DNA of 64,000 bases. It comes from Sphingomonas sp. PAMC 26621. Its GTDB lineage: Bacteria; Pseudomonadota; Alphaproteobacteria; Sphingomonadales; Sphingomonadaceae. Below are positions 26,353-50,023 of the stretch, in pieces (position 1 is the first letter of the stretch; every line of letters begins with the position of its first letter). Location of the stretch: positions 62,001 through 126,000 of the forward strand of contig NZ_AIDW01000014.1 of assembly GCF_000251145.1 (NCBI RefSeq), in the 5' to 3' direction. A program made the translations under genes and the position numbers. Under the pieces are notes generated by a model that was not told where the DNA came from, did not search any database, and saw nothing but the letters and a program-made list of their open reading frames with translations.

Positions 26353-26757
26353 TCAGTTCGCCAGTTCGGCCGGCACCTTGCCGCCGGACTGCGCGAGCTT
26401 CGCCATCACCTGCTTGTGCAGCCAGATGTTCATCGACGCGCTGTCGTTGGTGTCGCCGGTGAACCCGAGTTCCTTGGCGAGTTCGAGCCGGTTGGCATGG
26501 CTCGAATCGAGATCGAGGACCTTCATCAGGTCGACGATCGACGTGCGCCAGTTGAGATCCTGTCCCTTGGCGGCCGCCTTCTGGGTCAGCACGGCCTCGA
26601 CGTCGACGGGGGCTGCCGGTGCTGGTGCTGCGGCGGCGGGGGTGCCCGGGTCGGACGGTGTGTTCATCTGCGGCATGTTCGGCGACGACGGCGCAGCTTC
26701 GACGGGCGCAGCCTTGTGACCCCAGATCGCGTCCTTGATCCTGCTGAAAATGCTCAT
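26353..26757 (-). CDS. DUF3597 domain protein
   Basis: 134 residues from the ATG at 26757; AGAGGA lies eight bases ahead, whereas the ATG six bases upstream would be too close. The N-terminus is MSIFSRIKDAIWGHKA. An Ala/Pro-rich linker then leads to the conserved domain (VDVEAVLTQKAAAKGQDLNW, SIVDLMKVLDLDSSHANRLE, LAKELGF), which ends in NIWLHKQVM. The domain is short and of unknown function; family members are often small cytoplasmic proteins. A poor EcfG-like match (GGAAC-N16-CATT, reading minus, 26813-26789) precedes it and might place it in the stress response. Confidence 0.85.
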   Translation of the reverse strand: MSIFSRIKDAIWGHKAAPVEAAPSSPNMPQMNTPSDPGTPAAAAPAPAAPVDVEAVLTQKAAAKGQDLNWRTSIVDLMKVLDLDSSHANRLELAKELGFTGDTNDSASMNIWLHKQVMAKLAQSGGKVPAELAN

Positions 26758-26889
26758 CGTCATGGTCCTCTTGTGGTGATGGGACCGGAATGCACTGCGT
26801 CGGGGTCCGTTCCGTCTCCAAACCGGACGCTACGGCAAATTGTTGAATTGCGGCGTGACCTGTGCGGCGTGCTGGGGCATTGGCGCGCC

Positions 26890-28142: not shown

Positions 28143-28167
28143 GGAACCGATCCAATCCTGCTAGGTT
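28143..28167 (+). promoter_or_regulatory. Near-consensus EcfG-type promoter upstream of the acidic protein gene
   Basis: GGAAC at 28143-28147, 16 bases, then GGTT at 28164-28167. The alphaproteobacterial general-stress sigma factor EcfG uses GGAAC-N16/17-CGTT; here the -10 has one mismatch at its first base. It lies about 50 bp before the start at 28219. Confidence 0.45.
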
Positions 28168-28218
28168 CGCATCTGCAGCCGCCCCCCGCATCGGGCCGGG
28201 GCGGCCGGGAGACACGAC

Positions 28219-28569
28219 ATGAGCATTGGTGGCCATCAAGTGCCCGGCGAAGGCTCGGGCGACGACGGATTCGATGAAGAAGGCTATGACGAGAGCCAGC
28301 GTGCGGAGATCCTCGAGGTCACGCGCGACGGACCGACCGACGGGACGATCCTGACCGATCTCAACCCCGACATCACGTCCAAGAGCGACGACGATGACGA
28401 GGATGAGGACGACCTCGACATGGATTCGGAAGACGTCGGCGAGGAAGACGACGATGCCGACATGGACGAGGACGATCTCGACGAGGACGACGTCCAGGAC
28501 GATGTCGACGACGACGATGTCGAGGAAGACGAACTGACCGATCGCGACGACGCAGCACTGCGGCCGTGA
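28219..28569 (+). CDS. Highly acidic hypothetical protein
   Basis: 116 residues. The C-terminal two-thirds is almost wholly Asp/Glu (for example DDDDEDEDDLDMDSEDVGEE), interrupted by single hydrophobics every few residues. The N-terminus (MSIGGHQVPGEGSGDDGFDE) is Gly-rich, and there is no signal peptide or membrane segment. Composition predicts an intrinsically disordered, strongly anionic cytoplasmic protein, which might buffer cations or mimic DNA, though nothing shows this. A Shine-Dalgarno-like GGGAGA precedes the ATG. A near-EcfG promoter upstream suggests stress induction. I do not recognise a family. Confidence 0.7.
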   Translation: MSIGGHQVPGEGSGDDGFDEEGYDESQRAEILEVTRDGPTDGTILTDLNPDITSKSDDDDEDEDDLDMDSEDVGEEDDDADMDEDDLDEDDVQDDVDDDDVEEDELTDRDDAALRP

Positions 28570-28638
28570 TGGCGGGCGGCGGGCCGGGTACCGGTCCGCT
28601 GCCAGTCCCGGCCCGGTACGCCGGACCAATCGCGCGAG

Positions 28639-28663
28639 GGAACGGCGCGGGCCGATCTTCGTT
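28639..28663 (+). promoter_or_regulatory. Consensus EcfG-type stress promoter for the lipoprotein gene
   Basis: GGAAC at 28639-28643 and CGTT at 28660-28663 are separated by exactly 16 bases, matching the published alphaproteobacterial EcfG promoter GGAAC-N16/17-CGTT. The element lies about 45 bp before the ATG at 28709 on the same strand. Expected start of transcription is near 28670. Confidence 0.7.
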
Positions 28664-28708
28664 AGCCAAGCCCCCGCCGATCCCATTCCCTGTCAGTCGA
28701 GCTTGTAT

Positions 28709-29404
28709 ATGACGCGCACCCTGCTTCTGTCCGTATCCCTGCTGGTGTTGGCGGGTTGTGCCGAGAGCGAGCCGGTGACCAACACCCCGGTCGATATCAA
28801 TGCCGCCGCGATCGACGCGCAGGATGCGATCGACGCATATGGCGACAATGCGTTCGGCAATGACGATGCCGAGGTCAATCCGGCCGGCGGTGCCGACATC
28901 AACAAGACCGACGACGAAGCCCCCGACAACCGGCTGGCCTCGCTCAACCCGCCTGCCCCCGGAACTCCGGGAGGACTCTCCGACGACCGGACGCCGGTTT
29001 CCGAGGCAAGCTTCACGCCCGACAGCGCGCAGGGCGCGGCAAATGTCGTGCAGACCTATTACGCGCTGCTCGGCGCGCGCAAGTTCGCGGAGGCGCGTGC
29101 GCTGTGGCGCCCGGGCAGCGCGGCGGCGGGACGTGACCTTGCGGCCTTCACCGCTGGCTTCGATCGGTACAGCGAATATCACGCCAATATCGGCGCCCCC
29201 GGGCGGATCGATCCGGGCGCAGGTCAGCGCTTCGTGACCGTGCCGGTGCAGGTCTATGCCAGGCTCAAGGCAGACCGCGCGCCGAGCTACGAAATCGGCA
29301 GCGTGACCCTCCACCGCGTCGCCGACGTCGACGGTGCGACCGCGGAACAGCGGCAATGGAAGATCGACGCGATCGCGCTCAAGCCGACCGCTGCGACGCG
29401 GTAG
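28709..29404 (+). CDS. Lipoprotein of unknown function
   Basis: 231 residues from ATG 28709 (a TTG six bases upstream is also in frame). TRTLLLSVSLLVLAGCAESE is a lipoprotein signal peptide with lipobox LAGC; the cysteine at about residue 18 would be lipidated. The mature part starts with a long Asp/Asn/Ala-rich linker. A compact domain from about 115 (AANVVQTYYALLGARKFAEA, RALWRPG...) resembles the NTF2-like or DUF4878-type folds of exported stress proteins. It ends WKIDAIALKPTAATR. An exact EcfG-type promoter upstream places it in the general stress regulon. No enzymatic motif is visible. Confidence 0.8.
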   Translation: MTRTLLLSVSLLVLAGCAESEPVTNTPVDINAAAIDAQDAIDAYGDNAFGNDDAEVNPAGGADINKTDDEAPDNRLASLNPPAPGTPGGLSDDRTPVSEASFTPDSAQGAANVVQTYYALLGARKFAEARALWRPGSAAAGRDLAAFTAGFDRYSEYHANIGAPGRIDPGAGQRFVTVPVQVYARLKADRAPSYEIGSVTLHRVADVDGATAEQRQWKIDAIALKPTAATR

Positions 29405-29431
29405 GGCGCGTCCATCCGTCCGCCGCCGCGA

Positions 29432-29638
29432 TCAGTCATTGCGCAGGGCGTTGGCGAGCAGCGCCAGACCCTGCGCCTCGACCGGTTCGCCGTCAGCATC
29501 ATGGAATGTCCCGGGTGCCTCGGTGACCCGATGCGCCTTGTCCGGCGCGAAGCCGACAGTATCGACAGCGGTCCATATGATGCCCCCGGCCCACAACAGC
29601 GCCGACCATCGGCTCAGGAACAGTTTGCGGAACGGCAT
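29432..29638 (-). CDS. Small membrane protein
   Basis: 68 residues. One hydrophobic stretch (SRWSALLWAGGIIWTAVDTV) near the N-terminus is likely a membrane anchor. The short polar tail ends NALRND. Codon use is ordinary for the window (G/C-rich third positions). No Shine-Dalgarno is visible ahead of the ATG, and no known domain is recognised. It is convergent with the lipoprotein gene, 27 bp from its stop. Confidence 0.5.
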   Translation of the reverse strand: MPFRKLFLSRWSALLWAGGIIWTAVDTVGFAPDKAHRVTEAPGTFHDADGEPVEAQGLALLANALRND

Positions 29639-29699
29639 GCGGACACTTTGGCCGCCAGACCGTGAAGATCCGACGAGGGTACATCGTTAACGCCGGTGT

Positions 29700-29876
29700 C
29701 TAGTCGCGGTCTTCCGCGTCGCTTTCGGCATCACGCGCGGCCTCGCGCAGGCGTTCGGCCGATTTGCGCGCAGCGTCTGGCGTGAAGCTTTCGGCCAGTC
29801 CTTCCGGTCCATCGAGCAGCACCTCGCCGCCCTCGGCCACGACGTCCATCGGTTTGGAGTGCGGATCTTTTGGCAT
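29700..29876 (-). CDS. 58-residue stress-type protein
   Basis: The start MPKDPHSKPMDVV leads to EVLLDGPEGLAESFTPDAAR and a Lys/Arg/Glu/Ala-rich helix ending in EDRD. It lacks a signal or membrane segment. GAGGGAGA lies seven bases before the ATG (29876). A perfect EcfG-type promoter lies just upstream, so the transcript has a leader of about 20 bases. The gene is too short for usual length cut-offs, but codon use, ribosome site and promoter agree. I do not recognise the family. A related role to other small stress-induced proteins is inference only. Confidence 0.75.
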   Translation of the reverse strand: MPKDPHSKPMDVVAEGGEVLLDGPEGLAESFTPDAARKSAERLREAARDAESDAEDRD

Positions 29877-29899
29877 TACGGACGTCTCCCTCTGGACAG

Positions 29900-29924
29900 A
29901 ACGTCGGCATACCGGCCATGTTCC
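29900..29924 (-). promoter_or_regulatory. Consensus EcfG-type stress promoter for the 58-residue gene
   Basis: Reading the minus strand, GGAAC (29924-29920), 16 bases, then CGTT (29903-29900). This is an exact match to GGAAC-N16-CGTT. The start codon at 29876 is 24 bases further on, leaving room for the Shine-Dalgarno GAGGGAGA. The plus strand of this stretch is also the upstream region of the Crp/Fnr gene. Confidence 0.75.
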
Positions 29925-29947: not shown

Positions 29948-30655
29948 ATGTATATCGATCTGTTTTTAAAGAAGCATCGCACGCCTGTGCTGTCTGCGGA
30001 GGAAGTCGCTGCAATCGAAGCGGCGGCAATCCGCACGACGAGCTATGCCACGCGGCAGATCTTCATCCGGCAACAGACCCCGCTGACGCAATGCACGCTG
30101 CTGCTCGAAGGGTTCGTCGAGCGCTTCAAGGACACGCCCGAGGGCCGGCGGCAGATCCTCGCGATCCACGTGCCTGGCGATTTCGTCGATCTGCACAGCT
30201 ATCCGCTCAAGCGGCTCGAACATTCGGTCGCGGCGTTGACCGATATTCGTGTCGCGCTGTTTCCCCATGCCGAAGTTCGCGCGTTGACGGAGAAATCCGC
30301 GACGATCACCGAATTGTTATGGAAGTCGACGATGATCGACGCCGCGATCAACCGCGAATGGATCGTCTCGGTCGGCGCACGCGGCGCGGCAGTGCGGCTC
30401 GCGCATTTGTTCTGCGAACTGTTCGTGCGGCTGGAGCGGATCGGCCATGCCTCGGGCAACAGCTTCGCGATGCCGCTGACGCAGGTCGATCTTGCCGACG
30501 CAACCGGGCTGACCGCGGTTCACGCCAACCGGATGTTGCGGCAGTTGCGCGAGGACGGTCTCGTCACCTTCCGGCAGGGGGTCGCCGAAATCCTCGACTG
30601 GCCACGGCTGCGCGCCTTCGCCGAGTTCGACCCGGCGTATCTGTTTCTGGACTGA
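29948..30655 (+). CDS. Crp/Fnr-family transcriptional regulator
   Basis: 235 residues from ATG 29948. A GGGGAAGGGG tract lies about 12 bases upstream, slightly far; a TTG at 29937 could be the true start. The cyclic-nucleotide-binding-like N-terminal domain shows RQIFIRQQTPLTQCTLLLEG and GDFVDLHSYPL. A dimerisation helix follows, and then a winged helix with VDLADATGLTAVHANRMLRQ as recognition region. There is no cluster of cysteines for a 4Fe-4S centre, so it is not an Fnr-type oxygen sensor. The effector is unknown. Its promoter is back-to-back with that of the 58-residue stress gene. Confidence 0.9.
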   Translation: MYIDLFLKKHRTPVLSAEEVAAIEAAAIRTTSYATRQIFIRQQTPLTQCTLLLEGFVERFKDTPEGRRQILAIHVPGDFVDLHSYPLKRLEHSVAALTDIRVALFPHAEVRALTEKSATITELLWKSTMIDAAINREWIVSVGARGAAVRLAHLFCELFVRLERIGHASGNSFAMPLTQVDLADATGLTAVHANRMLRQLREDGLVTFRQGVAEILDWPRLRAFAEFDPAYLFLD

Positions 30656-39744: not shown

Positions 39745-40236
39745 TCAATCGAGCGTCACCTTGGCGACCTTGTCCTTGTAGTCTTCCTTGGGATCGATCC
39801 CGAGCAGCATCTTGACCCCGGCGATCATGCTCGACGCATCGACCCAGATTTGCGCCTGGTCCGGGTCGAGCCGGATCAGCTGGAGCTTGGGGTCGTCCTT
39901 CCCGCCTTCGAACCAGGCGGCCACGAAGCGATTCCACAACCGGTCGATCAGCGCACGATCATCGTCGAGCGACAGCGTGCCGTGGACCGCCGCGAAGAGA
40001 TCGTTGCCCTTCGACGCGAACGTCGCGACCGCCCGCGCGCCGGGCTTCAGATCGGCGACGAGTTCGGTTTCCCTGGAGGTAAAGAAGTAGATCGGCCCGC
40101 GATCCTCGTCGCCATCGAGCTGGGCGGTCATCGGGCGCGTATGCCCTTCGTCGACCCCGGCGAGCCCGAGCATCATCGTCATGTCGGAACGCAATGCCTT
40201 CCAGAATTTGTGCTCGATTTCTGCCTGGTCGGTCAT
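39745..40236 (-). CDS. General-stress pyridoxamine 5'-phosphate oxidase-like protein
   Basis: 163 residues from ATG 40236, with AGGAGA five bases ahead. The PNPOx-like split barrel matches the general stress protein 26 family: IEHKFWKALRSDMTMMLG, RPMTAQLDGDEDRGPIYFFT, then AVHGTLSLDDDRALIDRLWN and DDPKLQLIRLDPDQAQIWVD. Such proteins bind flavin or F420, but no catalytic role is agreed for this group. An exact EcfG promoter lies upstream, consistent with a general-stress protein. The C-terminus reads IDPKEDYKDKVAKVTLD. Confidence 0.88.
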   Translation of the reverse strand: MTDQAEIEHKFWKALRSDMTMMLGLAGVDEGHTRPMTAQLDGDEDRGPIYFFTSRETELVADLKPGARAVATFASKGNDLFAAVHGTLSLDDDRALIDRLWNRFVAAWFEGGKDDPKLQLIRLDPDQAQIWVDASSMIAGVKMLLGIDPKEDYKDKVAKVTLD

Positions 40237-40257: not shown

Positions 40258-40283
40258 AACGGGCGGTTGCAGCGTGGGGTTCC
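40258..40283 (-). promoter_or_regulatory. Consensus EcfG-type stress promoter for the PNPOx-like gene
   Basis: Reading the minus strand, GGAAC (40283-40279), 17 bases, then CGTT (40261-40258). This equals GGAAC-N17-CGTT. The start codon at 40236 is 22 bases further on, leaving room for the AGGAGA ribosome site. Confidence 0.75.
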
Positions 40284-48625: not shown

Positions 48626-50023
48626 TCAGGCCGCCGCGGATGCCTCGGGCATGTCCGCCGCCATCAATGCGGCAAGGAACGTCTCGCGCCACCAGTCGAT
48701 GTCCTGATCCTCGATCGAATCCATGCACGCGCGCCAGCGGCGGATCCGTTCGTCCTTGCCCATCCGCAGCGCGGTCAGGATCGCATCCGCCATTTCCTCG
48801 GCGCTGTACGGGTTGACCTGGATCGCCTGGGTCAGTTGCGCCGCCGCGCCCGCGAAGCGCGACAGGATCAGCACGCCCGGATCCTCGGGGTCCTGCGCCG
48901 CGATATATTCCTTGGCAACGAGGTTCATCCCGTCGCGCAACGGCGTGACGAGCCCGATCTTCGACGCACGGTAGATCCCCGCGAGCGTATCGCGGCCATA
49001 GCCCTGGTTGACGTAGCGGATCGGCACCCAGTCGACGTCGGCATAGGCACCGTTGATCCGGCCCGACAGGCTTTCGAGCGTGTTGCGGATGCGCTGGTAA
49101 CTCCCGACCGCGCCGCGTGACGGCGGGGCAATCTGGAGCAGGAACACTTCCTTGCGCTCTTCCGGATGCTCGACCAGGAACCGCTCATAGCCGAGGAAGC
49201 GCTCCTCAAGGCCTTTGGAATAATCCAGCCGGTCGACCCCGACGATCATGTCGCGCCCGTCCGCGCTGTCGCGCATCCGGCGATAGGTCAGCCGCGCAAC
49301 GACGCTGCGCGCGAGCTCGGCGAATTCGGGCGCGTCGATCCCGATCGGGCAGGCGAGCACGCGGACGCTGCGGTCGCCGAGCGTGACGGTGCCGTCCGCG
49401 ACGGTCGCGCCCATTTCGAGCCGCGCGAAATCGAGGAAGCTCTCGAGCCACTCCTGCGTGTGGAAGCCGATCACGTCATAGGCGAACATCCGCCGCACCA
49501 GTTCCTGCGCTTCCGGCAGGATCGACAGCAGGCGACGCGGCGGCCACGGGATATGAAGGAAGAAGCCGATCCGGTTCTCGCACCCGCGTTTGCGCAGCTC
49601 GTCGCCGAGCGGGAACATGTGGTAATCCTGGATCCATACCACGTCCTCCGCCTCGATCAGCGGCTGCACCGTCTCAGCGAAACGCTCGTTGACGCGCTGA
49701 TAGCCGCCCGCAAAATCGCGTTCATATTCAGCGAGATCGACGCGGTAGTGGAACAGCGGCCACAAGGTCCGGTTGGCATAGCCGTTGTAATATTCGTCGA
49801 TGTCCTGGTCTTCGAGATCGACCGTCGCGGTCGTGACGCCATCGTTGCGATGGAAGTTGATGTCACCGGTGAAATGGTCGGTGCGTTCGCCCGACCATCC
49901 GAACCACACGCCGCGATACTGCCGCAGAGCCGATTGCAGCGCGACCGCAAGGCCACCCTGCGCGCCCGATTCCGACCCCTTGGGCGCGGACACGCGGTTC
50001 GAGATGATCACCAGACGAGTCAT
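48626..50023 (-). CDS. otsA: Trehalose-6-phosphate synthase
   Basis: 465 residues from ATG 50023, whose ATGA overlaps the preceding stop. GT20 landmarks are all visible: MTRLVIISNRVSAPKGSESG, GGLAVALQSAL, then VWIQDYHMFPLGDELRKRG, GFFLHIPWPP, DRLDYSKGLEERFLGYERFL, IAPPSRGAVGSYQRIR and TPLRDGMNLVAKEYIAAQ. It joins UDP-glucose and glucose-6-phosphate to trehalose-6-phosphate in the cytoplasm. As the third gene of an otsB/GH15/otsA run, its product is dephosphorylated by OtsB encoded two genes upstream. Confidence 0.96.
   Translation of the reverse strand: MTRLVIISNRVSAPKGSESGAQGGLAVALQSALRQYRGVWFGWSGERTDHFTGDINFHRNDGVTTATVDLEDQDIDEYYNGYANRTLWPLFHYRVDLAEYERDFAGGYQRVNERFAETVQPLIEAEDVVWIQDYHMFPLGDELRKRGCENRIGFFLHIPWPPRRLLSILPEAQELVRRMFAYDVIGFHTQEWLESFLDFARLEMGATVADGTVTLGDRSVRVLACPIGIDAPEFAELARSVVARLTYRRMRDSADGRDMIVGVDRLDYSKGLEERFLGYERFLVEHPEERKEVFLLQIAPPSRGAVGSYQRIRNTLESLSGRINGAYADVDWVPIRYVNQGYGRDTLAGIYRASKIGLVTPLRDGMNLVAKEYIAAQDPEDPGVLILSRFAGAAAQLTQAIQVNPYSAEEMADAILTALRMGKDERIRRWRACMDSIEDQDIDWWRETFLAALMAADMPEASAAA

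Follow-up and report, generated by a model that had tools for sequence, protein, structure and literature searches.

We analysed 64,000 nucleotides (nt) of the genome of Sphingomonas sp. PAMC 26621 (NCBI RefSeq assembly GCF_000251145.1, contig NZ_AIDW01000014.1, positions 62,001 to 126,000 of the forward strand; hereafter the window, in whose coordinates all positions are given). Within about 3.6 kb of it, four small genes each follow a predicted promoter of the type read by EcfG, the extracytoplasmic function (ECF) sigma factor of the alphaproteobacterial general stress response. The plus strand encodes a 116-residue acidic protein (28219..28569) and a 231-residue putative lipoprotein (28709..29404), and the minus strand encodes a 58-residue protein (29700..29876) and a 136-residue DUF3597 protein (26353..26763; PF12200, 163.7 bits). 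The candidate promoter of the acidic-protein gene (28143..28167, plus strand) reads GGAAC-N16-GGTT and ends 51 nt before the ATG at 28219. That of the lipoprotein gene (28639..28663, plus strand) is an exact GGAAC-N16-CGTT ending 45 nt before the ATG at 28709, and that of the 58-residue protein gene (29900..29924, minus strand) is likewise exact and ends 23 nt before the ATG at 29876. These are the sites reported in an initial annotation as two exact matches and one near match with 16-nt spacers, each before a small gene, and all three are present as claimed; they combine a GGAAC -35 box with a (C/G)GTT-like -10 box at a spacing of 16 to 17 nt. A fourth predicted promoter, GGAAC-N16-CATT (26789..26813, minus strand), ends 25 nt before the start codon of the DUF3597 gene. 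All four sites lie on the same strand as their genes and less than 100 nt from the start codon.

The case for these promoters is carried by conservation before orthologous genes. Two sets of loci were used: the best 80 of 216 found with the acidic-protein gene in a genome collection (the named loci), and a second set from 30 of 35 matching genomes (own included), which may share genomes with the 80 because the collections overlap. Titles lack the word Sphingomonas in 5 of the 80 named loci (L168 and L201, Sphingomonadales; L213, uncultured bacterium; L208, Arthrobacter; L220, Microvirga). The records of Arthrobacter sp. TPD3018 (L208) and Microvirga sp. SRT01 (L220) both hold Sphingomonas-type loci, and their organism names are therefore probably wrong.

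Upstream of the acidic-protein gene, GGAAC-N16/17-NGTT occurs in 80 of 80 named loci (70 with [CG]GTT, 10 with TGTT) and in 30 of 30 loci of the second set (28 with [CG]GTT). The match is specific to spacing: 70 of the 80 upstream regions have [CG]GTT at 16 or 17 nt, and each of the remaining spacings between 4 and 40 is seen in 2 regions at most; among the 30 it stands at 16 or 17 nt in 28 and elsewhere only at 40, in 3. The spacers themselves have diverged, with 59 distinct sequences in the 80 loci and a mean pairwise identity of 0.41 (N16) or 0.52 (N17), the identity of the core being fixed by the search pattern. Judged by conservation, the near match at 28143 is thus the best-supported of the three candidate sites first annotated. 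The lipoprotein gene has a homologue in 20 of the 80 named loci, with the motif before 16; three of the four misses are alignments that start at residue 85 or later, and the fourth, L179, is genuinely without a site. Among 30 lipoprotein homologues from the second collection, the motif precedes 17, including 15 of the 16 best. Homologues of the 58-residue protein gene were found in 12 named loci, with the motif before 12 of 12, and in 30 loci (of 45 matches) from the second collection the strict match occurs in 10, including the 8 best. Before the DUF3597 gene, found in 13 named loci, the exact CATT form is present in 7 and only a CTTT form, at spacing 18, in 2. All four genes occur together in 7 of the 80 named loci. 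A search of both strands over the full length of six of these loci gave 25 GGAAC-N16/17-(NGTT or CATT) sites, of which 24 were the predicted promoters of the four genes. The motif is kept before orthologues more than the spacer between its boxes, the exceptions being L179 for the lipoprotein and, for DUF3597, the 6 of 13 loci in which the CATT form is missing.

The regulators expected behind such a motif are present: PhyR, NepR, an ECF sigma factor and an HWE/HisKA_2 kinase are encoded side by side elsewhere in the same genome (contig C57). PhyR matches NF006623 at 380 bits (cut-off, 240), NepR scores above the Pfam cut-off (PF18557) and below the NCBIfam equivalog cut-off, and the kinase has PhyK as its best NCBIfam match, far under the cut-off. 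The sigma factor passes the Pfam r2 and r4_2 models and the general ECF model TIGR02937, and none of the other 24 NCBIfam families passed among the matches listed (of 85); because it passes only the Pfam and general ECF models, it is called EcfG on the strength of its place next to nepR and phyR. A GGAAC-N16-GGTT site precedes nepR on nepR's own strand, so the GGTT ending of the site at 28143 is paralleled in the same genome. Among published motifs, that of Sphingomonas melonis Fr1 is GGAAC-N17-20-GTT, enriched within 100 bp of the start (PMC6599016), and that of Sphingopyxis granuli TFA is GGAAC-N16-CGTT with a flexible -10 element (PMC7083833).

We consider the sites to be, very probably, EcfG-driven promoters of the alphaproteobacterial general stress response, a reading in which dependence on EcfG is deduced from the motif, its conservation and the presence of the regulator genes. 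The initial annotation had assigned its sites to EcfG with PhyR and NepR, and this proposal gains from the side-by-side regulator genes, from the agreement with published motifs and from the retention of the sites while their spacers diverged. Its suggestion that the acidic protein, the lipoprotein and the 58-residue protein are likely members of the general stress response is supported by the conservation of the motif before the same genes in other genomes. The mechanism is taken from published relatives: the sites would serve as -35 and -10 elements recognised by RNA polymerase carrying EcfG, which NepR would hold in unstressed cells; under stress, HWE/HisKA2 kinases would lead to phosphorylation of PhyR, which would bind NepR and free EcfG. 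Free EcfG would then turn on four separate small transcription units within the roughly 3.6 kb, for the DUF3597 protein, the acidic protein, the NTF2-like lipoprotein and the 58-residue protein.

Placement relative to coding DNA points the same way. The genome (4.77 Mb, 68 contigs) contains 37 exact GGAAC-N16/17-CGTT sites, 27 of which lie outside called coding DNA, compared with 64 of 169 wrong-spacing sites (Fisher p 0.0002), and 10 of the 37 are in promoter position (outside coding DNA and within 150 nt before a called start), compared with 8 of the 169. The wrong-spacing control was drawn from twenty 20-kb stretches (400 kb) with the pattern [CG]GTT, while the 37 sites are CGTT only. Coding DNA was called by a rough, purpose-written gene caller prone to miss small genes: its first setting missed the 58-residue protein and DUF3597 genes, and the second, on which the counts are based, also missed the acidic-protein gene, so the placement counts are approximate. 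The initial annotation had named equal frequency of the motif in coding DNA and before genes as grounds for giving up its proposal, and this approximate comparison did not refute it. The genome-wide scan for chance frequency that it had also proposed was favourable in this placement outside coding DNA and unfavourable in raw count (37 against about 78 expected).

That count is one of several results that weigh against the EcfG reading. The expectation of about 78 was derived from the 29 wrong spacings in the range 6 to 36; all 31 spacings together give 1172 matches, and sites at the true spacings fall below the average frequency (ratio, 0.47). Within the window, 5 GGAAC-N15-18-CGTT sites were observed where 2.16 would be expected, a count equalled or exceeded in 7 of 100 shuffles. 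Because neither the window count nor the genome count exceeds chance, we rejected motif count as proof. In the 400-kb sample, 5 [CG]GTT sites occur at true spacings, 2 of them outside coding DNA and 0 in promoter position. Of the ten genes behind exact sites that were scanned, four matched no Pfam family, and two encode an alpha/beta hydrolase and an HlyD-type protein. In the 58-residue family, most of the more distant members lack the motif, with no strict site within 320 nt in 20 of 30 loci, and the DUF3597 gene has no site in 4 of 13 named loci. The seventh four-gene locus, L179, which was left out of the 24-of-25 count, has no recognisable site before its lipoprotein gene and a DUF3597 gene without the CATT form. 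Finally, in genome G185, which carries an exact Fr1 promoter, the acidic-protein gene has a perfect motif, but that motif is absent from the 28 of 50 Table 1 motifs of the Fr1 study that were compared. It is conservation, not counting, that clearly sets these putative promoters above chance.

The depletion at true spacings is not shared by G010, a genome of the same genus (ratio, 0.99). We also considered whether genomes that have this stress system generally avoid the motif: the median ratio was 1.32 in 12 NepR-positive genomes (own included) and 1.08 in 68 NepR-negative ones (Mann-Whitney p 0.22), and the idea was therefore dropped.

We also scanned against Pfam ten genes chosen among those that follow the 37 exact sites, together with a window gene, the pyridoxamine-5′-phosphate-oxidase-like gene at 39745..40236 (minus strand; PF16242), which has a further exact site, GGAAC-N17-CGTT (40258..40283, minus strand), 21 nt before it. 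Families were found in 7 of the 11: PRC-barrel, CsbD-like (E 7e-9, under the cut-off), DUF5670, DUF4112, alpha/beta hydrolase, HlyD-type and pyridoxamine-oxidase-like. The last is presumably also the type of "general stress protein 26" of S. melonis Fr1. In that strain, "general stress protein 26" gene #1836 and PRC-barrel gene #1478 are both EcfG-dependent (Table 1 of PMC6599016).

These likenesses bear on the alternative that survives best, namely that the promoters are real and of ECF type but that their main reader is an EcfG paralogue or a different ECF sigma factor of the same genome, and not the EcfG encoded next to NepR. GGAAC-like -35 boxes are common to ECF sigma factors. In Sphingopyxis granuli, moreover, two EcfG paralogues make promoter-dependent contributions (PMC7083833). 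The spacing and -10 element nevertheless fit the published EcfG motif, nepR carries a site of the same type, and some of the genes that follow other exact sites are similar to EcfG targets already published; we regard the alternative as improbable. Less probable again is that the element at 29900..29924 serves mainly the divergent Crp/Fnr-type regulator gene (29948..30655, plus strand; PF13545 and PF00027), as an operator or overlapping promoter, rather than the 58-residue protein gene with which that regulator shares a short gap. The two genes adjoin in 12 of 12 loci, and in 11 of 12 aligned gaps (own plus 11 loci; L212 not aligned) the motif begins GGAACATG, a conservation that extends beyond the core. 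The element points toward the 58-residue protein gene, however, its last base lying 23 nt from that start codon; GGAG then follows the motif in 11 of the 12 aligned sequences, and no GGAAC-N15-18-NGTT precedes the Crp/Fnr-type gene in any of the 12 loci. That the matches are mere chance occurrences in G+C-rich DNA, as window and genome counts no higher than expected might suggest, is very improbable, being contradicted by conservation before the same genes (80/80, 30/30, 12/12 and 16/20) that is nearly confined to spacings 16 and 17 while the spacers have diverged.

The EcfG reading makes the four genes new predicted members of a known regulon, not a new system. The acidic protein consists of 47% aspartate plus glutamate, has a predicted charge of -49, is conserved in its N-terminal half and contains the near-invariant segment Y-D-E-S-Q-R-A-E-I-L-E; across the aligned proteins the acidic fraction is 38 to 50% and the net charge about -39 to -54. 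It was found in 35 of 37 genomes within the genus and 0 of 24 outside it (61 genomes searched), matched no Pfam or NCBIfam family at E up to 1 and had no match among 72,556 plasmid records. As a near-universal predicted target in the genus, its gene is a good candidate for removal. Our best guess is that it is a hydrophilin-like protectant, presumably disordered, with a specific partner that would be bound through the conserved N-terminal half.

The lipoprotein has a cysteine, Cys17, that is invariant in the alignment and follows a hydrophobic stretch, and it has no Pfam family above cut-off. In its structural model, a block over residues 101-230 has a predicted local distance difference test (pLDDT) score of 77-96 (whole-model mean, 72; predicted template modelling score, 0.56), and the best Foldseek match has E 7.3e-5 and a TM-score (template modelling score) by target of 0.51, several of the listed matches being titled NTF2-like or NTF2. 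The model thus predicts the cone-shaped alpha+beta fold of NTF2-like domains at about residues 105-226. The matches include Bd1075 and PBP3, which we take to have NTF2-like domains and wall-linked roles. An MliC domain (PF09864) is fused to 2 of 3 scanned homologues (L161:6706-7704 and L215:6804-7742) and absent in the third (L207). An extra C-terminal stretch is present in 5 of 18 aligned rows, in L162, L167 and L222 by alignment only. The MliC fusions lead us to infer an envelope-protecting role for the lipoprotein, which is our best guess at its function.

The 58-residue protein, predicted to form a beta-hairpin and a helix, was matched in 33 of 100 genomes, all of a single genus. It matched no Pfam or NCBIfam family at E up to 1, and its model (mean pLDDT, 85) gave no credible match to solved structures (best E, 3.0). 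Downstream, across a 61-nt gap, lies a 68-residue open reading frame (ORF; 29432..29638, minus strand) that has no motif of its own and is possibly co-transcribed with the 58-residue protein gene; homologues of it occur in 45 of the 80 named loci, frequently ones in which no 58-residue homologue was found. As for the DUF3597 gene, its counterpart in S. melonis Fr1 (#1282) is EcfG-dependent, with a log2 ratio of -3.9 and a best motif under the authors' cut-off, and the CATT ending recurs in the motifs of #1442 and #1831 (Table 1 of PMC6599016).

Elsewhere in the window, another GGAAC-N16-GGTT (49750-49774, plus strand) stands 25 nt before an 88-residue ORF of uncertain reality. Between 26000 and 31000, one sigma-70 promoter and one intrinsic terminator were predicted, each within the shuffle range. 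Among RNA elements, the single Rfam match is a tRNA, and ARAGORN reports two tRNAs.

A broader proposal, which we put forward only tentatively and think less likely than not to hold as a whole, gives the acidic protein the role of a core effector in the general stress response of Sphingomonas, one that would define the genus. The protein would be a disordered polyanion whose near-invariant segment binds one specific partner, and it would shield that partner or mimic nucleic acid during stress. With the lipoprotein, the 58-residue protein and the DUF3597 protein, it might then form a compact stress island with four independent promoters, kept together by one Sphingomonas clade.

Hydrophilins are defined by glycine above 6% and a hydrophilicity index above 1 (PMC7448490), and 18 of 18 aligned acidic proteins exceed both values when hydrophilicity is taken as minus the Kyte-Doolittle mean. 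The acidic protein thus resembles hydrophilins and late embryogenesis abundant (LEA)-like proteins in composition and in its predicted stress promoter. It differs from them in its extreme acidity and in its strongly conserved N-terminal half, which a non-specific protectant would not need and which suggests a specific partner. The lipoprotein is linked to MliC, the membrane-bound inhibitor of c-type lysozyme, by those homologues that end in an MliC domain, whereas the window protein, in which PF09864 was not detected at E up to 1, comprises the NTF2-like part only.

The closest comparison is with the EcfG (sigma-T, ECF15-type) regulons of Fr1 and TFA. The promoters share the GGAAC -35 box, the spacer of 16 to 17 nt, the -10 box CGTT or near variants and a distance of less than 100 nt from the start codon; the PhyR, NepR and EcfG genes are likewise present in the PAMC 26621 genome, and a DUF3597 gene is common to its predicted regulon and that of Fr1. 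The two differ in that the acidic-protein, lipoprotein and 58-residue protein genes were not recognised among the 50 genes of Table 1 of the Fr1 study, 28 of whose 50 printed motifs were compared. None of these motifs was found before the three genes (22 motifs against the collected loci, at most 2 mismatches; 28 against five loci, at most 4), and literature searches, covering listings with the openings of abstracts, surfaced no description of them. About 40% of the EcfG-dependent genes of Fr1 are not tied to a specific function (PMC6599016), and the footprinting presented here places four small conserved genes in the predicted EcfG programme.

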